64,000 nucleotides of DNA, taken from Methanofollis liminatans DSM 4140 (GTDB lineage Archaea; Halobacteriota; Methanomicrobia; Methanomicrobiales; Methanofollaceae). Location: assembly GCF_000275865.1 (NCBI RefSeq), contig NZ_CM001555.1:618827-682826 (forward strand), written 5' to 3'. Each line of letters opens with the position of its first letter. Within the stretch, counting starts at the first letter, position 1. Positions 5,309-38,971 of the stretch are shown here, in pieces. Both the position numbers and the translations under genes were made by a program. Below the pieces are notes generated by a model. The model was not told the origin of the DNA. It saw nothing but the letters and a program-made list of their open reading frames with translations, and ran no database searches.

Positions 5309-6646
5309 TTATTTGAGCAGAAGCCGCTGCCCGTTCCTCAGCAGGTGGATATCGTTGTTCAGGGTATATCCGCACCCCTCGGCGAACTTCAGGTAGCCGC
5401 CGGTCATATCGATGTCCCCATGGGACGGGATGATGTGCTGGGGGTTTAAGAGATGGATCAATTCGTAGTGGTCCTCCCGGTAGGCATGGCCGCTCACGTG
5501 GAGCTCGTCGTGGATGCGTGCGCCCTTCATCCGCAGGAGCGTCTCGACGAGGTGGCGCTGGCCATAGTTCATCGGGTTTGGGATCACCTTTGCCGAGAAG
5601 AGGATCTTGTCGCCCTTCTCGACCTTGTATGGCGTGTCTCCCTGTGCAATCCTGGTCAGGATCGCCCCGGGCTCGCCCTGGTGGCCGGTGACGATCGGGA
5701 CGAACTTGTCCTTGCCGGTCTTTAAGATGTGACGAAGCGTCCGGTCCACCGTCCGCCTGTTCCCGAAGACCGAGAGCGTCGGCGGGAAAGAGACGAGTTT
5801 TAACTGCTCGGCGGTCGTGGAGTAGCGCTCCATCGAGCGGCCGAGGAGTACGGGCTTTCTCCCCATCTCATGGGCGCACTCGGCGATCGTCTTGATCCGC
5901 GAGATATGGGACGAGAAGGTCGAAACGATCATGGCGCCTTTGTCGTCCTCATAACTGGTCATCGTATCGCGCACCAGATCGCGGGCGATCCGCTCGCTCG
6001 GGCATCTCCCTTTCTTATCGATGTTCGTCGACTCGACGACGAGGGCGATCACGCCCTCCTTGCCGATCTGGCGGAGGCGGGCGAGGTCGGGCGGGTCGCC
6101 GAGCACCGGCGTCCGGTCGAGTTTGAAATCGTTTGCATAGACGATCGCCCCGTCCTTTGTGTGGAGGACAGCCATCACCGTATCGATGATCGAGTGCTGC
6201 ATCTTGACAAATTCCAGGGTGATGTTCTGGGAGATGCGGAAGCGCTGGCCGGGCCGCAGGACCTGCACCTTGTTGTTCACCCCGAACTTCTGCTCGCCCT
6301 GGATCTGCTGTTTGATCAGCTCGACCGTGTAGGGCGTCCCGATGATCGGAGCGTTGTACCGGTGCGCGAGCTTCGGGATCGCCCCGATATGGTCGAGGTG
6401 GCCGTGCGTGCAGACGATCGCCTTCACGCTCCCCTCGACGGTGTTCATCATCGTGTCGTCGGGGATCGCCTTCATCTCGATCAGGTCGAGGGAGTGCATG
6501 TTCTCGAGTTCGGCATCCTCGTGGATCATGATCTGGTCGAGCCTGATGCCCATATCGAAGATGACGATCTCCTTTCCGCAGCGGACGGCGGTCATGTTTC
6601 GACCGACTTCGTTGTAGCCGCCCACTGCAACAATTTCAATATCCAT
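5309..6646 (-). CDS. rnj: Archaeal RNase J (beta-CASP metallo-beta-lactamase ribonuclease)
   Basis: A 445-residue metallo-beta-lactamase fold enzyme with the zinc motif THGHLDHIGAIPKL near residue 80. Later come the beta-CASP and C-terminal motifs (SGHAYREDHYELI and PSHGDIDMTGG). The archaeal aRNase J family has 5'-3' exonuclease activity on RNA. The position between fni and idsA is the common euryarchaeal arrangement, which is why the gene is sometimes misread as an isoprenoid enzyme. The start ATG at 6646 leads straight into the first beta strand (MDIEIVAVGG). Confidence 0.93.
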   Translation of the reverse strand: MDIEIVAVGGYNEVGRNMTAVRCGKEIVIFDMGIRLDQIMIHEDAELENMHSLDLIEMKAIPDDTMMNTVEGSVKAIVCTHGHLDHIGAIPKLAHRYNAPIIGTPYTVELIKQQIQGEQKFGVNNKVQVLRPGQRFRISQNITLEFVKMQHSIIDTVMAVLHTKDGAIVYANDFKLDRTPVLGDPPDLARLRQIGKEGVIALVVESTNIDKKGRCPSERIARDLVRDTMTSYEDDKGAMIVSTFSSHISRIKTIAECAHEMGRKPVLLGRSMERYSTTAEQLKLVSFPPTLSVFGNRRTVDRTLRHILKTGKDKFVPIVTGHQGEPGAILTRIAQGDTPYKVEKGDKILFSAKVIPNPMNYGQRHLVETLLRMKGARIHDELHVSGHAYREDHYELIHLLNPQHIIPSHGDIDMTGGYLKFAEGCGYTLNNDIHLLRNGQRLLLK

Positions 6647-6664
6647 TTTTTATCTCCTATTTAT

Positions 6665-7708
6665 CTAAATTTCAAGCATCTGGCGTGTTTTTCCCGTAAT
6701 ATAGGTCCGTGCCTTTGCAAGATCCGTAATGCTGCCGGATCCTGTCAGGAACATCGCCGCGCGCACCTCTCGCAGGATTGTGCCGACCGCGGCTTCGAGA
6801 GCCTCATCGCTCTGCATCGCAGGGCGCAGGAAAGGAAGCGCCATCCCGCCAAGGCTGGCACCGAGTGCAATCGCCTTCGCGACATCGATCCCGCTCCGCA
6901 CGCCGCCGGTGGCGATCACCGGGCCGGTGCCGCCCACCTCGCCGAGGCTGACCACTGTCGGGATGCCCCAGTCGAGGAAGCGCTCACCGAGTGACCGCAG
7001 GCCTTCGTCTTCGGTCCGCTCCACCTCGACTGCCGCCCATGAGGTGCCGCCTGCGCCGCCGAGATCGATCGCTGCGGCGCCCGCACCCCAGATGAGACGC
7101 GCAGTCTCCCTGGATATGCCTGCCCCGGTTTCTTTGACGATCACCGGCGTTTTAAAGTCTTCGCAGAGCTCGGCGATGGCCGCAAGGCAGCCGCGTGCAT
7201 CGTGATCGCCTTCAGGCTGGATCGCCTCCTGCAGGAAATTGAGGTGGATACAGAGGGCATCGGCATCGATCATCTCGACCGCCAGCTCAGCCCATCCGGC
7301 ACCATGATCGCGCACCTGCACCGCGCCGAGATTGGCGCAGAGAAAGGCGTTGGGCGCTTCGTCCCGGACGACCGAGAAACTCTCGGCCACGTCAGGGTGT
7401 TCGAGCGCTGCGCGCTGGGATCCTACACCCAGGCCGAGACCGAACATTCCGGCGACCCGTGCGAGTCTCCGGTTTACTTCGGTCGTTGCGGGGTGACCGC
7501 CGGTCATTGCGGCGATAAAAATAGGCGCGCCGAGAGAGGCGCCGAGGAATTCTGTCTCCAGTCTGATGTCTTCGAGATCCTGCTCCGGCAGGGCCTCATG
7601 CACCAGCCTGACGTCCTCGAAGCCTGCGCTGCCCGCCTCAACCTCGTGCTCGCAGCAGATCCGGAGGTGGTCCAGCTTCCGCGAGGACGTCTGCGTATTC
7701 TTTCTGAT
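6665..7708 (-). CDS. fni: Type 2 isopentenyl-diphosphate delta-isomerase, probable ATC start
   Basis: An FMN-dependent isomerase converting IPP to DMAPP. Signatures are MTGGHP, the FMN-site segment IVKETGAG, and GGVRSGIDVAKAIALGA near the C-terminus. The first in-frame usual start is a GTG at 7603, but it lies inside the conserved N-terminus: the frame upstream reads SSRKLDHLRICCEHEVEAG, typical of the family. That frame is open up to a TGA at 7748-7750 and contains no ATG, GTG or TTG. A strong GGAGGA (7715-7720) sits seven bases before an ATC at 7708, which I take as the start (347 residues). A conventional annotation would give 6665-7603. A sequencing error or a frameshift from the ATG at 7751 are alternatives. 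Confidence 0.85.
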   Translation of the reverse strand: MRKNTQTSSRKLDHLRICCEHEVEAGSAGFEDVRLVHEALPEQDLEDIRLETEFLGASLGAPIFIAAMTGGHPATTEVNRRLARVAGMFGLGLGVGSQRAALEHPDVAESFSVVRDEAPNAFLCANLGAVQVRDHGAGWAELAVEMIDADALCIHLNFLQEAIQPEGDHDARGCLAAIAELCEDFKTPVIVKETGAGISRETARLIWGAGAAAIDLGGAGGTSWAAVEVERTEDEGLRSLGERFLDWGIPTVVSLGEVGGTGPVIATGGVRSGIDVAKAIALGASLGGMALPFLRPAMQSDEALEAAVGTILREVRAAMFLTGSGSITDLAKARTYITGKTRQMLEI

Positions 7709-30147: not shown

Positions 30148-30908
30148 GGATCAGAGACCGGATCGATCCGCTCTACGAGCGCTACCTGCAGTGGCAGTGC
30201 AAACATATCCCCGGCCACATCGCCATCATACAGGACGGCAACCGCAGGTATGCCCGCCTCCTCGGGGTCGGAACGATCGAGGGCCATCGTGCAGGCGCCG
30301 AGACGACCCAGCAGGTGCTTGAATGGGCAAAGGAGATCGGGATCAGGACGATCACGCTCTACTCCTTCTCCACCGAGAACTTCAACCGTGACGAGGGTGA
30401 GGTCAACTACCTCTTCGATATCTTCAAGGAGAAGTTCATCGGCGTTCTCAGCGACGAGCGGGTCCATGCAAATCAGATCAGGGTCCAGATGATCGGCGAC
30501 CGATCGATGCTCCCTCCAGACCTTCTTGAGACGATCGAAGCCGCCGAAGAAGCCACCCGCCACTACAGCCGCTTCTTCCTCAACATCGCCCTTGCCTACG
30601 GGGGCAGGAACGAGCTGGTCCATGCCGCCCGGCGGGTGGTCGCCGGCGTCCGCGAGGGCTCAATCGCCTCTGACGAGATCACGCCGCGTACGGTCGAGAA
30701 CTACCTGTACGAGGGCCTCCACCTCCCCCCGGTCGACCTGATCATCAGGACCGGAAACGAGCGGCGCACCTCGAACTTTCTGCCATGGATGGCAAACGGA
30801 AACGAGTGTGCCGTCTATTTCTGTGCGCCGTACTGGCCGCTCTTCAGGAAGATCGATCTCCTGCGGGCGATACGCCTCTATGACCAGCGGATCCGTGCCA
30901 GAGAATAG
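30144..30908 (+). CDS. uppS: Cis-prenyltransferase (polyprenyl diphosphate synthase), probable CTG start
   Basis: Makes the long-chain polyprenyl diphosphate that becomes the dolichol-type carrier for glycosylation. The catalytic motif IAIIQDGNRRYAR lies at codons from about 30219. LYSFSTENFNR and IIRTGNERRTSNFLPW are also typical. The first ATG in frame (30315) lies beyond the catalytic Asp, and there is no ATG, GTG or TTG upstream of it that would keep the motif. A CTG at 30144, overlapping the previous stop as CTGA, has GGAGGTG (30129-30135) eight bases before it, so I take it as the start (254 residues). Confidence 0.88.
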   Translation: MRIRDRIDPLYERYLQWQCKHIPGHIAIIQDGNRRYARLLGVGTIEGHRAGAETTQQVLEWAKEIGIRTITLYSFSTENFNRDEGEVNYLFDIFKEKFIGVLSDERVHANQIRVQMIGDRSMLPPDLLETIEAAEEATRHYSRFFLNIALAYGGRNELVHAARRVVAGVREGSIASDEITPRTVENYLYEGLHLPPVDLIIRTGNERRTSNFLPWMANGNECAVYFCAPYWPLFRKIDLLRAIRLYDQRIRARE

Positions 30909-30914
30909 GGGGCC

Positions 30915-31505
30915 TCAGGCCCCAAAACGTCTTTTTCTTGCTCCGAAGTCCCTTAGTGCCCTGAGAAAATCGATCTTTCTGAACAACGTCCAGTTCACAT
31001 CCAGGAAGAAAAACTCCGAGTATACCGACTGCCAGATGAGAAAATCGGTGAGATAATTGCCGCCGGTCTTGATCACCAGGTCAGGGGCGCACCTGAAGGT
31101 GAGGTGCCGTTCGATCACCGCTTCGTCGATCTCTTCGGCACACGTCTCTTCTGCGGCGATATTTTTGATGCATGCGGCAATCTCTTCCCTTCCGCTCTTG
31201 CCGACGGCGACGATGACGTTCATCCCCTCTCCTGTCGTCTCGATCCGGTCACCGATATGGAGGTTGAGCCTGCCGATAGCGGCGATCTTTCTGATCTCAG
31301 GCAGGCAGGGTGCGATCCGGCCGGGGTCGTCGGTGGAGATGTGAAAGGTGGCGGCCTCAAGCCCGGCGTCCCTGCACCACCCGGCCACCTCGACGATCTT
31401 CTGCGGGGCCTCGATCATATCCTCCTCGGTGATCATGAAACAGATCTCTCGGGGAAGGACGGTGAGGCTGCGCTGCAGCCTCCGTTCATAAAACCAGCGG
31501 ATCAT
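30915..31505 (-). CDS. Cis-prenyltransferase-like protein without catalytic aspartate
   Basis: A 196-residue paralogue of the convergent neighbour. The C-terminal halves align (APDLVIKTGGNYLTDFLIW versus VDLIIRTGNERRTSNFLPW; LFRKIDFLRAL versus LFRKIDLLRAI). At the active-site position it reads ICFMITEEDM instead of IAIIQDGNRRYA, so the phosphate-binding Asp-Gly-Asn-Arg-Arg is gone. Non-catalytic subunits of this kind (NgBR in animals, and a heteromeric enzyme reported in Methanosarcina mazei) pair with a catalytic subunit. It overlaps PolX by 4 bp. Confidence 0.82.
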   Translation of the reverse strand: MIRWFYERRLQRSLTVLPREICFMITEEDMIEAPQKIVEVAGWCRDAGLEAATFHISTDDPGRIAPCLPEIRKIAAIGRLNLHIGDRIETTGEGMNVIVAVGKSGREEIAACIKNIAAEETCAEEIDEAVIERHLTFRCAPDLVIKTGGNYLTDFLIWQSVYSEFFFLDVNWTLFRKIDFLRALRDFGARKRRFGA

Positions 31506-33187: not shown

Positions 33188-33270
33188 GCATGAAGGTGGG
33201 TTTGTTCCTATATAGCGCTTGAGTGACCGCCCTCTCTTCTGTCTCCCTTTCTGCAGGGAAGCAAATCCAT

Positions 33271-33288
33271 ATGAGCAAAAAGCTCAAA
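33271..33288 (+). promoter_or_regulatory. Candidate operator of the dtxR-feoB operon
   Basis: ATATGAGC-AAAAA-GCTCAAAT is an inverted repeat (arms match at seven of eight positions) immediately before the regulator's start codon. A TATA-like CTATATAG (near 33210) lies upstream. The position is suitable for autoregulation by the iron-type regulator encoded next. Confidence 0.45.
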
Positions 33289-33296
33289 TGGAATGT

Positions 33297-33923
33297 ATGA
33301 ATTCCTCCGTCCGTGAAGACTGCCTTGAGGCAATTCTCACCCTGACGCAGGCGAACGGTGGCTCTGTGGCCGCAGAGGGGATCCTGGCGGCGGTGGACGC
33401 GGACAGGGCCGAGGTTGAGGCATGTCTCGCAGGACTTGTTGCCGATGGAGCGGTCCGGAAGGACGATAGGGGATATCTCCTCTCCACCGAGGGAAAGCGC
33501 ATTGCCGAAGCGGTCCTCAGAAAACATCGCGTCCTTGAGTGTTTCCTCTGCGAAATGCTTGGTATGGACACCGGGGCCGCTTCAAAAGAGGCCTGTGTCC
33601 TCGAGCACGAGATCTCTGACGAGGCCATCGACCGCCTTTCCAGATATATCGAGCGGCCCGGCCACGGCCCGAGGCGGCACTGTGCCGGGCGCTGCCGCGA
33701 ACACAGCCTGCTGGAGTTTGCCGAGGGCGATCTCCTCGAGATCACCATGATCCGCTGCCTCAGCCGGAACCGCCGTCTGATCGACCTCGGCCTCATCCCG
33801 GGCGAGCAGATCACGATCAGGCGCAAACTCTATAACGACGCCATTGTGGTCAGGGTGAAGGGTGCGGATATCGCACTCTCCCCTGAGATCGCATCGACCA
33901 TCTTTGCGGAGCCGGTCAGATGA
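33297..33923 (+). CDS. DtxR-family metal-dependent regulator with fused FeoA domain
   Basis: A 208-residue regulator. Winged helix residues about 3-65, dimerisation and metal-site segment CVLEHEISDEAIDRLSRYIE (about 95-115), a cysteine/histidine patch HGPRRHCAGRCREHS, and a FeoA-like SH3 domain (about 137-208, LIDLGLIPGEQITIRR). The ATG at 33297 is the most family-like start; an ATG at 33288 is possible. The stop overlaps feoB by 4 bp. It probably represses feoB when ferrous iron is abundant. Confidence 0.88.
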   Translation: MNSSVREDCLEAILTLTQANGGSVAAEGILAAVDADRAEVEACLAGLVADGAVRKDDRGYLLSTEGKRIAEAVLRKHRVLECFLCEMLGMDTGAASKEACVLEHEISDEAIDRLSRYIERPGHGPRRHCAGRCREHSLLEFAEGDLLEITMIRCLSRNRRLIDLGLIPGEQITIRRKLYNDAIVVRVKGADIALSPEIASTIFAEPVR

Positions 33924-35770
33924 GGTGCGCGCTCATCGGCAATCCGAGCGTCGGCAAATCCCTGATCTTCAACCAGCTCACCGGCCTTGGCGTCGAGGTG
34001 AGCAACTACCCGGGGACGACGGTCGAACTGATGCAGGGAAAACTCTGTCACCAGGGTTCGACCCTGCAGGTCGTCGATCTTCCCGGGATCTATTCGATGG
34101 ACGGCGACTCGGCCGAGGAAGAACTCGTCCGGACCTACCTTCTTGCAGAAACTCCCGATGCGGTGATCGCTGTCCTTGACGCCACCAGGATGGAGCGGAA
34201 CCTCTACCTCCTCCTCCAGCTCGCCGAATACGGGATCCCGATGGTCGTCGTCATCAACATGATCGACGAGGCGGCGCAGCAGGGGATCATCATCGACAGC
34301 AGGCGCCTCTCCTCGGTCCTGGGGGCGCCGGTGATCGAGACCGCTGCATCCCTGGGAAAAAACATCGGCGAGATCGTGCCGGCGGTCCTCTCCTCGGCAC
34401 GGCCGGCCGCGATCGCCGTCCCCTATACCCCGCAGATCGAGGCCGCCATCAGGAGCCTTGGCAAACTCTACGGTGCCACCCGCCTCCAGGCACTCCATGC
34501 CCTTCAGGGTATCGGCACCTCCAGTGATCTCATCGAAGGGGCGCGAACGATCGCCGGGGAGATCGAGTCCCTCAACCACATGTCGGCCCACCAGATCATC
34601 GGCGCAAACCGGCACCTCTGTGCCCACCGGATCGCTGCCGATGTCGTCGGGGCGCAGGAACCTGACCGACGCTTCTCGGCCGACCGTCTGCTCACAAAGG
34701 CGTTCCCCGGCATCCCGATCCTTGCCGTGGTCCTCCTCTCGATGCTGCTCACCGTCTTTATCGCCGGCTCGTTCCTGGAAGAGCTGATCGTCGATATTTT
34801 TACCGTCCTTGCGATCGAGCCCTTTCAGACCCTTTCCCTCCCCCCCCTTGCCACCGCCCTCGGGATGGCGGCCCTCCTTGCCATCGTTGCCGGCCTCGGC
34901 ATCGCCTTTCCATTCGTCCTCATCTTCTACCTCCTCCTCTCTATCGTTGAGGATACCGGCTACCTGACGCGGGCGGCGTTCCTTGCCGACCGGTTGATGC
35001 ACGGCCTCGGCCTCCACGGCGGCGCCATCATCCCGATGGTGATGGCCTTCGGCTGCAATGTGCCGGCGGTGATGGCGGCAAGCCAGCTCCGGACGGTGCG
35101 TGAACGGACGATCGCCGCCTTTCTGGTCACGATGGTCCCCTGCTCGGCCAGGACGGTGATCATCACCGGCATCGTGGCGGCGTTTGTCGGGTTGTGGGCG
35201 GCCCTTTCCATTTATCTGATCGTCCTCGTCCTGATCGTACTCACCGGCGTGTTTCTGGCACGGAATATCCCGGGCGGGCAATATGGTATGATCCTGGAGA
35301 TGGCGCCGCTCCGAATGCCCGATCCCGTGCTGGTCATGAAAAAATCGTGGGGGCGGATCCAGGAGTTTCTCTTTATCGCCATGCCCCTGCTGCTCGCGGG
35401 CAGCGTCGTCCTCGGCGCCCTCGATTACTACGGTGTGGTGGATGCATTCTCCCTCATCGTCGCTCCGGTCTCCGAGGGGTTCCTCGGACTCCCTGCCTAT
35501 GTCACGACCGCCCTCCTCTTCGGGATCCTGCGCAAGGAGATGGCGTTTGAAACCCTGGCCGTGCTCTCGGGCACTGCCGATCTCGGTTCGGTGCTGACCG
35601 GCGTCCAGCTCTATACGTTTGCGGTGATCAGCGTGCTGTTTGTCCCCTGTATCTCGACAATCGCCGTGATACTCCGTCAGATGGGGATGAGGGTGACGCT
35701 GGCCGTCTCGGCCTACACGATTACGCTTGGCTTTTTAATAGGGGGACTCATACACTTTATCGCAGGATAA
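33920..35770 (+). CDS. feoB: Ferrous iron transporter B
   Basis: A 616-residue membrane GTPase. G1 GNPSVGKS (residues 7-14), G2 region NYPGTTVE, G3 DLPGIYSM, G4 NMID. The two Gate-type membrane repeats follow, with about nine hydrophobic segments (for example VVLLSMLLTVFIAG and CNVPAVMAASQLRTVRERTI with a conserved Cys). It is shorter than bacterial FeoB (about 770), as in other archaea. It starts inside the regulator's stop (ATGA). Confidence 0.95.
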   Translation: MRCALIGNPSVGKSLIFNQLTGLGVEVSNYPGTTVELMQGKLCHQGSTLQVVDLPGIYSMDGDSAEEELVRTYLLAETPDAVIAVLDATRMERNLYLLLQLAEYGIPMVVVINMIDEAAQQGIIIDSRRLSSVLGAPVIETAASLGKNIGEIVPAVLSSARPAAIAVPYTPQIEAAIRSLGKLYGATRLQALHALQGIGTSSDLIEGARTIAGEIESLNHMSAHQIIGANRHLCAHRIAADVVGAQEPDRRFSADRLLTKAFPGIPILAVVLLSMLLTVFIAGSFLEELIVDIFTVLAIEPFQTLSLPPLATALGMAALLAIVAGLGIAFPFVLIFYLLLSIVEDTGYLTRAAFLADRLMHGLGLHGGAIIPMVMAFGCNVPAVMAASQLRTVRERTIAAFLVTMVPCSARTVIITGIVAAFVGLWAALSIYLIVLVLIVLTGVFLARNIPGGQYGMILEMAPLRMPDPVLVMKKSWGRIQEFLFIAMPLLLAGSVVLGALDYYGVVDAFSLIVAPVSEGFLGLPAYVTTALLFGILRKEMAFETLAVLSGTADLGSVLTGVQLYTFAVISVLFVPCISTIAVILRQMGMRVTLAVSAYTITLGFLIGGLIHFIAG

Positions 35771-35772
35771 AG

Positions 35773-36486
35773 ATGGACCCGTTCAGGACCGGCATCAGGA
35801 AGATCGATGAGAAGACGGGCGGTATTCTGCCCGGATCTAATCTCCTCCTTCTTGCACCTCCGTTTGCCGATGCCGAACGGCTTGCCATGTACCTGGGGCA
35901 ACCCGGCGACTCCGATTATACGGTCGTCATTTCCACCGATCAGGACGCGCAGGAGCTTGTGATGGCCTTTGGCCTTCCCGAGTCTGAGCGCCATCGCCTC
36001 TGGATCATCGACTGCATCACAAAGACCCTGGTCCCGGTCATCGCTGACGAAGATCAGGTGAAATATGTCGGGAGCCCGGTCGACCTGACCGGGATGGGGA
36101 TCAAGTTCACGAAGATCCTCGACGGCATCCAGAGGGCGGAAGCGGCACGAAACGACCTCTCAGGCACGCCGAGAGTGCGCGTATGCATCATTTCTCTCTC
36201 AAGTTTTCTGATCTATACTAAACTTGAGGTGATCTACCGCTTTTTCCATATCCTCTCTGCCAGGATCAGGCGGATGAACGGGATCGGCATTTATCTTCTC
36301 AATCCTGAGGGCGTCGACGAGAAGACGATCTCGACCCTGAAACAACTGATGAACGGCATGATCGAGGTGAAGGAGGATGCGACCGATCCGACGGTGCGGA
36401 TCCTCCGCTGCCAGATGATGAGCGGGGAGTGCGTGCCTTCTGTCCGGTACCGCTTCTCAGGCAGCGACCTTGTGGAGGAGCCATGA
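35773..36486 (+). CDS. RecA/KaiC-like protein without Walker A lysine
   Basis: A 237-residue protein with a KaiC/RAD55-like start (FRTGIRKIDEKTGGILPGSN) but at the P-loop it reads ILPGSNLLLLAPPFADAER, with no GKT/GKS, so it should not hydrolyse ATP in the usual way. Later strands (VRVCIISLSSFLIY, GIGIYLLNPEG) match the RecA fold loosely. It starts 2 bp after feoB and overlaps the next gene, a KaiC-like/GTPase fusion, by 4 bp. The two probably form a complex. Function unknown. Confidence 0.7.
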   Translation: MDPFRTGIRKIDEKTGGILPGSNLLLLAPPFADAERLAMYLGQPGDSDYTVVISTDQDAQELVMAFGLPESERHRLWIIDCITKTLVPVIADEDQVKYVGSPVDLTGMGIKFTKILDGIQRAEAARNDLSGTPRVRVCIISLSSFLIYTKLEVIYRFFHILSARIRRMNGIGIYLLNPEGVDEKTISTLKQLMNGMIEVKEDATDPTVRILRCQMMSGECVPSVRYRFSGSDLVEEP

Positions 36487-37655
36487 TCTATACCGGCATC
36501 ACTGCTCTGGACGAGATGATCGGCGGGGGCGTACCGCGAGGAAAGCGGGTGCTCTTCTCCCTTGCACCGGGTGTCGAGGGGCAGCAGTTCATGTTCAGCG
36601 CCCTGAAATGCGCGCACCGCATGGGGAAGCGCTGTCTTGTGATCGTCCCGCACACCTCGGCTGAGGCCTTCCTCGCCGACCTCTCGGCAACACCTTATGG
36701 CATGGAGGCCGATGAGCGGTTGATCTTCCTGGACTCGTTGGCGTTCGAGGAGATCGAAGCGAATTCCCGTACGCCCGAGGCCGAGTGTGCGGCCTGGAAA
36801 GAACAGATCGATACGATCTGCAGGAGCGGCCCCATCAATGCGATCTTTCTCTACTGCAATCGCCTCTGTGATGAAATCGGGACAGAACATGCCCTCGCCC
36901 TCTTCTTCGGACGGTCTTTGAAGGAGGGGGCGACGCTCTTTGTGGAATACCTCAATCTCTATGACGAGGGGCATCTGGATGATCTGACGGCGTCCTGTCT
37001 CTTCGATCTTGTCCTCTCCATCGGCGAGGGCTATGGAAACATCCTTTTTTTCAATCATTTTATGGTCAGGCATGTGACCTGGACATCCCTCCCGCCCCGC
37101 CAGATCCCCTATATGATCCGCGAAGACAGTTCTGTCGCGCCGCAGATCCCCAAGATCGTCGTCACCGGTCCGACTGATGCCGGGAAGACCACGTTTATCC
37201 AGACAGTCTCGGAAAACTGGGTATCTTCGGACAGGATAGGAATATCCGGGTCTGCGACAACGGTGGCGATGGATTTCGGTCATCCTCTTGTTTCCTGCCG
37301 GGGTTTTGATATCACGCTCGTCGGAACCCCGGGGCAGGAGCACTTCGGTCCGATCATCACCCATCTGCTCACCAATGCGACCGGCGTGATCTTCGTCGTC
37401 GACGGCACGCGTACCGAATCCCTGAGCCGGGGCCTGGACATTCTGGGAACAGTCAGGCGTATGGGGATCCCCTTTGTCGTTGCGGTGAACAAGAGAGAGA
37501 TGCCTGGCCAGATCTCAGATGCGACGCTGCGCACCCTGCTGCGCCTTTCGGAGCGCACCCCTCTCTACCATCTCTCCGCCCTCAACAGGGAGGAGGCGAT
37601 GGGCGTGATCGACGCTCTCATCATGCTTATTACACGTGAAACCTTTCTGGAGTAG
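36483..37655 (+). CDS. KaiC-like domain fused to a Ras-like small GTPase
   Basis: A 390-residue fusion. Residues 1-225 resemble a KaiC/RAD55 domain (YTGITALDEMIGGGVPRGK) but with APGVEGQQFMF in place of a P-loop GKT. Residues 226-390 are a GTPase: G1 VTGPTDAGKTTF, switch II GTPGQEHFGP, and G4 variant NKRE. The start at 36483 makes an ATGA overlap with the previous stop. MglA-like and COG2229-like GTPases are the closest by motif. I know no named family with this architecture. Confidence 0.75.
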   Translation: MIYTGITALDEMIGGGVPRGKRVLFSLAPGVEGQQFMFSALKCAHRMGKRCLVIVPHTSAEAFLADLSATPYGMEADERLIFLDSLAFEEIEANSRTPEAECAAWKEQIDTICRSGPINAIFLYCNRLCDEIGTEHALALFFGRSLKEGATLFVEYLNLYDEGHLDDLTASCLFDLVLSIGEGYGNILFFNHFMVRHVTWTSLPPRQIPYMIREDSSVAPQIPKIVVTGPTDAGKTTFIQTVSENWVSSDRIGISGSATTVAMDFGHPLVSCRGFDITLVGTPGQEHFGPIITHLLTNATGVIFVVDGTRTESLSRGLDILGTVRRMGIPFVVAVNKREMPGQISDATLRTLLRLSERTPLYHLSALNREEAMGVIDALIMLITRETFLE

Positions 37656-37661
37656 GAGACG

Positions 37662-38411
37662 ATGCTGACATTTATCGGGCTTGGCCTCTATGACGAGACA
37701 GATATTTCGATCAAGGGGCTCGACCGCATCAGGCGGTCTGACTATGTGTTTCTCGAATGCTACACCTCGGTGCTGACCGGGACGACGCCTGAACAGATGA
37801 CCGAACTCTTCGGGAAGGAGGTCGGCATGCTCTACCGGGAGGATGTCGAAGGGCACCCTGAGACCTTTCTTGAACTGGCAAAGGAGTCCGACGTGGCGTT
37901 TCTCACGGCGGGCGACCCGATGGTATCGACCACGCATATCGACCTTCGTATCAGGGCCGCCGCGATGGGGATCAGGACAGAGATCATCCATGGCGCCTCG
38001 ATCGTGAGCGCGGTCTGCGGGTTGACCGGGCTGCAGAACTACCGGTTCGGCAAGTCCTGCTCCCTTCCGTTTCCCTATGGCAAATGGGCCCCCACGACAC
38101 CGATCGAGGTGATCGAGCAGAATATCGCCGACAAACTCCACACCCTCGTCTATCTCGACATCCAGCCTGACCGCTATATGCGCATCCCCGAAGCGGTCAG
38201 GATGCTCGAAGAGATGGCCGCGGCGCGGGGGATCTCGATCCCGGTCTATGTCGGCGTGGCCAGAGCCGGTTCGGGCTCGCCCGTGGTGGCGGCCGGCACC
38301 GCCGCCGCTCTTGCCGGGGTGGACTTCGGCGGCCCCCTGCATATCCTGGTCGTGCCCGGCGACCTCCATCTGATGGAGCGCGAGTACCTCGAAACCTTCG
38401 CCGGGCTATGA
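37662..38411 (+). CDS. dphB: Diphthine synthase
   Basis: A 249-residue SAM-dependent methyltransferase of the tetrapyrrole methylase fold. It methylates the modified histidine of elongation factor 2 during diphthamide synthesis. Signatures are [34 protein letters not shown] and [20 protein letters not shown]. It is 6 bp after the GTPase fusion gene. Confidence 0.95.
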
Positions 38412-38971
38412 CGCCGCTTCTCGCCGCCCTTGCCGCCGCTCTCGACTCGATCGAGCCGCTCCCGCCTGAAGAGACTCCTCTCGGGGCGGTCTCGGCCGTA
38501 ATTATGCGGATGGCCCGTTCTTATCTCTCTGATGGGATGGTTTTTTGTGAGCGGGGCGACGATGTCAACGCCCACGCGAGTGCCGCCTATGCATTCGGCT
38601 GGCTGGACGCCGGGTCGTATATCGGCTTTTTTGCAGGTCTGAATCCTGAAGAAAATCGCTCCTTTGACGGTGCGATCCCTGAGGCGCAGCAGCATCGGCT
38701 CCTGGAGAAGACCGGCCGGTATGAACGCCTGCTCTGCGAGGCGACCTGTTCACTCTCGCCGGCGCCTGATCCCGATACCCCGATGTATGCGGCGGCCGGG
38801 CATCTCCTCTTTGAGGGGCAGGGAGCCCTTGAACGCGGGAGAAGGCTCTCTGATGAGGGCAGGACCACTGCTGCCCTCGGGTGGTATTCCTATGGTTTTG
38901 GCTGGCTCGATGCAGGCGTGCAGGCCGGTCTTTTCTCTGTTGTCGGATCGCGGGAGATCTTTACGGTCTGA
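38408..38971 (+). CDS. DUF357 domain protein
   Basis: A 187-residue helical protein with two similar halves. Each contains [21 protein letters not shown] (about 60) and [15 protein letters not shown] (about 170). DUF357 proteins occur across Euryarchaeota without a known role; an HEPN- or TPR-like helical bundle is possible. It overlaps dphB by 4 bp. Confidence 0.8.

Follow-up and report, generated by a model that had tools for sequence, protein, structure and literature searches.

What might two adjacent archaeal genes do when both encode KaiC-like proteins without a P-loop lysine and one of them carries a Ras-like GTPase as well? This question is raised by a locus in the window analyzed here, i.e., the whole stretch of 64,000 nucleotides from Methanofollis liminatans DSM 4140. 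The first gene, P1 (35773..36486, forward strand), encodes a 237-amino-acid protein with a KaiC/RecA fold and no P-loop, assigned to Pfam DUF7504 (PF24336). The second, P2 (36483..37655, forward strand), encodes 390 amino acids in which a pseudo-KaiC domain is fused to an MglA-type GTPase. As the first-pass annotation had claimed, the two open reading frames are consecutive, share an ATGA overlap at exactly these coordinates, and lie between feoB and dphB (dph5). The feoB stop codon and the ATG of P1 are 2 nt apart, and the end of P2 is 6 nt from dph5. The surrounding genes, all on the forward strand, encode a DtxR-type regulator with a FeoA domain (33219..33923; Pfam), FeoB (33920..35770; TIGR00437, E 5e-132), the diphthine synthase Dph5/DphB (37662..38411; NCBIfam TIGR00522, E 1e-84), and a DUF357 protein (38408..38971; Pfam). 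The nearest named relative in our scan, a Methanofollis MAG, is 81% identical over P2. The features of P1 and P2 described below are not due to chance, because the dN/dS ratios of P1 and of each P2 domain against three congeners are about 0.08 to 0.24 and because the pair recurs in other families.

KaiC-like domains of P1 and P2

Both proteins had been annotated with RAD55/KaiC-type N termini, and this was borne out by confident AlphaFold models that match RecA/KaiC structures. For P1 (pLDDT 90, pTM 0.88), the best PDB matches were of the RecA/KaiC type (3bs4, 2dr3, FlaH 4yds, and KaiC), with E values of about 1e-9 to 3e-11; a P1 profile gave no match among PDB sequences. P1 is a full-length member of DUF7504 (E 6e-26, 92 bits against a cut-off of 27), a family with no described function and no mention in the literature that we found, and its DUF7090 match was weaker. 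The pseudo-KaiC domain of P2 (residues 1 to 205, 36483..37097, forward strand) is assigned by fold, with a Pfam KaiC match below the cut-off (E 4e-4), and the P2 model (pLDDT 87) matches KaiC and SSO2452 (2w0m). Profiles of P1 and P2 matched each other weakly.

Walker A and Walker B positions in both proteins were set by alignment on true KaiCs from related loci. The Walker A motif is degenerate in P1 (APPFADAE, residues 28 to 35, 35854..35877, forward strand), where Ala34 occupies the lysine position, and in P2 (APGVEGQQ, residues 28 to 35, 36564..36587, forward strand), where Gln34 does so and PGVxG is found in most relatives. None of the 61 P1 orthologues and none of the 51 P2 orthologues in Methanomicrobiales has a lysine at this position, so the claim that neither KaiC-like domain retains it stands. 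The catalytic Glu pair is also lost from both proteins; where KaiC has the Walker B Asp, P1 has Ser and P2 offers no equivalent residue. By the measure of a KaiC ATPase, then, the RecA/KaiC fold is present, and the Walker A GxxxxGK[ST], the Glu pair, and the Walker B Asp are absent. A search of both domains for a displaced but intact Walker A found none. The GGxPxGKS sequence of several distant P2 proteins was considered and rejected, being the ordinary KaiC-family GG(I/L/V)PxG motif before strand 1, which reads GGVPRGKR in the window P2. On the strength of the models and their structural matches, P1 and the N-terminal domain of P2 are predicted to be folded pseudo-ATPases.

The P-loop is missing from the KaiC-like domain of P2 in 85 of 85 proteins (51 from Methanomicrobiales and 34 others), a set that includes Asgard archaea, Micrarchaeota, Thermoplasmata, and Methanobacteria and from which L105 was dropped as a true KaiC (GDGGTGKS, 83 bits). 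Since all 34 proteins from outside the order lack it too, the dead P-loop of P2 is judged to be ancestral. Relatives of P1 outside Methanomicrobiales mostly have GPPMSGK[D/E/N] and hence keep the lysine, and the P1 relative at L171 has a canonical GK[ST], as have the KaiC-like partners at L094 to L096 and L159. The lysine loss in P1 is therefore assigned, from the sequences compared, to Methanomicrobiales. These two histories bear on an earlier suggestion that the RecA folds were kept as a scaffold while nucleotide switching moved to the GTPase. P-loops were lost and the G1, TT, and GTPGQ motifs of the GTPase were kept, but there was no move within the pair, because the KaiC domain of P2 is P-loop-less in every clade and the lysine loss in P1 is confined to Methanomicrobiales.

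One alternative is that these folds are alive, and that P1, the N-terminal domain of P2, or both bind nucleotide or another ligand noncanonically at the old site. That site appears to be under selection, because P1 relatives outside the order keep a Lys followed by Asp, Glu, or Asn and because the P2 loop is itself conserved as PGVxG. However, the window proteins retain neither the Lys nor the Ser/Thr, their catalytic Glu pair and Walker B Asp are missing as well, and we consider such binding unlikely.

The GTPase domain of P2

Residues 222 to 385 of P2 (37146..37637, forward strand) form the GTPase domain, with PDB matches to Arl3 and MglA and an above-cut-off match to small_GTP TIGR00231 over residues 222 to 377 (E 3e-13). 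The G1 motif GPTDAGKTT (residues 229 to 237, 37167..37193, forward strand) conforms to GxxxxGK[ST], which is present in every P2. The G3 motif GTPGQ (37323..37337, forward strand; within GTPGQEHF, residues 281 to 288) is of the type found in MglA groups 2 to 5, with the Asp replaced, and recurs in most of the 85 P2 proteins. G4 is NKRE (residues 336 to 339, 37488..37499, forward strand), and NKxD in most relatives. A conserved G2 Thr pair is present; it follows G1 by 17 to 23 residues in nearly all P2s, compared to 28 in a bacterial Curvibacter sequence, and the bacterial insertion between G1 and G2 is absent. The description of this region as a full GTPase domain thus applies to its GPTDAGKTT, GTPGQEHF, NKRE, and switch-I TT elements but has to be qualified for G3, where GTPG stands in place of DxxG and the usual Asp is missing, and for G4, which is not NKxD. 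Some other Methanomicrobiales P2s have damaged GTPase motifs (GIPGG, NRKQ), and four are without the switch-I TT.

GTPGQ, a TT in G2, and a short G1-G2 distance are the marks of archaeal Group 4 MglA proteins in the survey of Wuichet and Sogaard-Andersen (PMC4316618), and P2 resembles that group in its GTPGQ, its G2 TT, and its lack of the bacterial insertion. The survey covered single-domain GTPases and reported no conserved neighbors for Group 4. P2 differs in that its GTPase shares one protein chain with a dead KaiC domain and is accompanied by a coupled gene for a second KaiC-like protein; the fusion to a KaiC-like domain is found in every P2, which places these proteins outside single-domain Group 4.

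The fused P2 GTPases were also placed in a tree alongside solitary archaeal ones, which had very few bacterial rows and long branches; a 99/97 branch separated them from the solitary MglA-type GTPases. Four FeoB/DRG-type sequences also fell on the fused side, and once these four were removed, the free tree put a long bacterial branch in the wrong place. Constraining the fused GTPases to one clade gave a better likelihood than the free tree and was not rejected (p-AU 0.849). An Arg in switch I, present in 79 of the 85 P2s, was discarded as a P2 mark, as solitary GTPases often have an Arg about two residues away. A Rag/Gtr identity was likewise dropped, given that no match of P2 to the Gtr1_RagA profile was listed at an E value of 1 or less. 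The same genome also encodes a solitary MglA-type GTPase of 160 amino acids with GTPGQ (L055, 7006-7488; approximately G000:C1:1585005-1585487), and the stretch read around it contains no adjacent Roadblock gene.

Gene neighborhoods within and outside Methanomicrobiales

The pair had been presented as a two-gene module, which does not hold outside Methanomicrobiales, where relatives carry a third gene. A separate Roadblock/LC7 (MglB-like) gene was found at 32 of the 34 distinct P2 loci outside the order, and a P1-like KaiC gene was found at 32 of 34 as well, counting neighbors within 1.5 kb of P2 on the same strand and excluding L105 as a 35th locus. For L097, L099, and L159, Pfam confirmed the Robl_LC7 assignment, and locus L160 stops at a contig edge. 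In a further locus, L170, KaiC, GTPase, and Robl_LC7 domains follow one another in a single open reading frame of 546 amino acids (5752-7392, reverse strand), a fusion that predicts direct contact of the KaiC fold, the GTPase, and Roadblock. The loci outside the order belong to Methanosarcinaceae MAGs, Alkanophagales, Thermoplasmata, Methanobacteriaceae, Methanomassiliicoccales, Asgard archaea (Freyarchaeota and Jordarchaeia), a Micrarchaeote, and Nanohaloarchaeon SG9. The module context is thereby seen across several archaeal phyla, including Asgard.

Surroundings of the module vary among these loci. In the archaeon isolate Maxine3 (L099, 6738-11588), Roadblock, P2, and P1 lie inside a gas vesicle cluster with gvpA, GvpL/F, and GvpK (Pfam Gas_vesicle, GvpL_GvpF, and GvpK). 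T2SSE and T2SSF genes (secretion/pilus ATPase and platform) are located downstream of the module in a Thermoplasmata MAG (L093, 11061-14530). KaiB-like and full KaiC genes are located upstream in the Asgard loci L097 (6878-7986), L098, and L101, with Pfam run on L097 only. PAS protein genes precede the module in L159, and a CRS1_YhbY gene adjoins it in L158. Each of these contexts represents one or a few loci, and together they hint at signaling and at surface or buoyancy structures. Separately, L178 (7560-13199 and beyond) contains two tandem Roadblock genes followed by a MinD-like gene and then by genes that resemble pilus/secretion genes in sequence.

Within Methanomicrobiales, the co-occurrence search placed P1 in 61 of 151 genomes and P2 in 37 of 151, the window's own included, with P1 present in all 37; the pair is thus conserved in other members of the order. 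P2 is missing from 24 of the 61 P1-bearing genomes (family f4 and part of f5), and family f8, apparently Methanosarcinaceae (L172 to L174), also has P1 without P2. Because it occurs without P2, P1 is not simply a scaffold of P2. A Roadblock/LC7 gene was found near the pair at none of the 51 distinct P2 loci in the order. The absence of this gene from the window locus is a further difference from MglA/MglB. Three Robl_LC7 genes are encoded elsewhere in the M. liminatans genome, away from P1 and P2. One of them, a 126-amino-acid gene beside a response regulator (G000:C1:1988542), gave the best match to the module profile (E 9e-27) and may be the moved partner of P2. Relatives of this candidate also occur in Methanomicrobiales families without P1 and P2, and their tree has long branches.

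The position next to feoB and dph5 could mean that the pair serves its neighbors, by regulating Fe2+ uptake through FeoB or diphthamide synthesis with Dph5. Spacing suggests a single transcription unit, and the order DtxR/FeoA-feoB-P1-(P2)-dph5-DUF357 is kept in several families. dph5 is the steadiest neighbor of P1 across Methanomicrobiales; P1 remains beside it where feoB is absent (L042 and L044) or, in other loci, inverted. A PAXNEB/Elp4 match of P1 (E 2.5e-4, 20.7 bits, under the Pfam cut-off of 28) points the same way, as eukaryotes have a link between Elongator and diphthamide factors. The Elp4/5/6 subunits of Elongator are RecA folds without a P-loop and resemble P1 in this weak match, but we know of no GTPase in Elongator, and an Elp4 identity for P1 was rejected on the subthreshold score. 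Against a role for the neighbors, the run broadly kept throughout the order, x333-uppS-uppS2-polX-DtxR/FeoA-feoB-P1-(P2)-dph5-DUF357, includes unrelated genes. Outside the order, the feoB/dph5 neighborhood is not kept, and the module adjoins CRS1_YhbY, gas vesicle, secretion ATPase, or KaiB/KaiC genes instead. The location that the first-pass annotation had pointed out is therefore real, but its value as a functional clue is weakened by the order-wide synteny and by the other neighbors in distant relatives, and we consider service to FeoB or Dph5 quite improbable.

It should be noted that the window also contains two cis-prenyltransferase genes (Prenyltransf PF01255) arranged tail to tail, at 30315-30908 on the forward strand and 30915-31505 on the reverse strand, which stay adjacent throughout Methanomicrobiales. 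In the second, the PF01255 match is confined to the C-terminal half, and its product may serve as a partner subunit with weak catalytic activity.

A putative switch on dead KaiC folds

We favor, with moderate confidence, the reading that P1 and P2 form a GTPase switch of the MglA/MglB type, with catalytically dead RecA/KaiC folds as its base. It is suggested by GTPGQ and the switch-I TT, the lack of the bacterial G1-G2 insertion, the coupling to Roadblock outside the order, and the L170 fusion. P1 and P2 would be the two surviving members of an archaeal MglA/MglB-like signaling module, in which the Ras-like, MglA-type GTPase of P2 would cycle between GTP and GDP states. What sets this GTPase apart is its permanent linkage to a dead KaiC fold and the second KaiC-like protein encoded alongside it. 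Control of the GTPase cycle in the ancestral module would fall to a Roadblock/LC7 protein, its dimers possibly acting as GAP or GEF. We infer that the KaiC folds of P1 and P2 associate with each other in RecA-type oligomers, providing a scaffold or docking surface, and that the GTP state sets what they bind. In Methanomicrobiales, where the Roadblock gene is gone from the operon, one of the three distant Robl_LC7 genes is a candidate stand-in. As for the output, individual loci suggest surface structures or gas vesicles.

Several findings stand against an MglA/MglB-type switch, i.e., the 51 order loci with no Roadblock gene near the pair, the 24 order genomes with P1 and no P2, the damaged GTPase motifs in some order members, the NKRE of the window protein, and the variable neighbor contexts. 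The same pattern could result if the module were decaying in Methanomicrobiales and a GTPase without Roadblock were turning into either a sensor of GTP or a binding domain that is otherwise inert. Loss of Roadblock from the locus, loss of P2 in f4 and parts of f5, damage to G2, G3, or G4 in several order proteins, and NKRE in M. liminatans would all fit. Decay is a serious rival because the module is pared down and GTPase motifs are damaged in some members; however, G1 and GTPGQ are intact in the window P2, and both of its domains are under purifying selection, which makes this outcome improbable.

More tentatively, with slightly less than even confidence, the MglA/MglB-type reading may extend to an archaea-wide switch of three proteins, as yet undescribed, in which a GTPase on an ancestrally dead KaiC and a second KaiC-like protein are under Roadblock control and which Methanomicrobiales pared to a P-loop-less pair. 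If true, this would connect the archaeal KaiC "hub" with GTPase logic of the MglA/Rag-like kind. In archaea, few GTPase switches are known whose genetic context is stable, and the P1/P2 module supplies one, with testable partners and with gas vesicles and type IV pilus-like machines as candidate outputs. P1 and P2 also show that dead RecA folds can be kept by selection.

The view that no named system has this form agrees with the literature that we found, where no description of a KaiC-GTPase fusion appeared, and holds within that scope; Makarova et al. (2017, mBio), which lay beyond it, may already list the family. Inactivated KaiC domains in archaeal signaling are themselves an established concept in the portion of PMC5847659 consulted, which uses "iKaiC" for inactivated KaiC-like ATPase domains in archaeal signaling and cites Makarova et al. 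Our proteins share with iKaiC the inactivated KaiC folds, a presumed role in archaeal signaling, and, in some P2 relatives, KaiB-like, KaiC, and PAS neighbors, whereas the KaiC-type domains in that portion are joined to receiver, PAS, or HalOD1 domains rather than to a GTPase. The Streptomyces conservons (CvnA-D) and the mycobacterial Mfp system are similar in that an operon combines a Roadblock protein with an MglA-type GTPase, but there the partner is a histidine kinase-like protein in place of KaiC folds.
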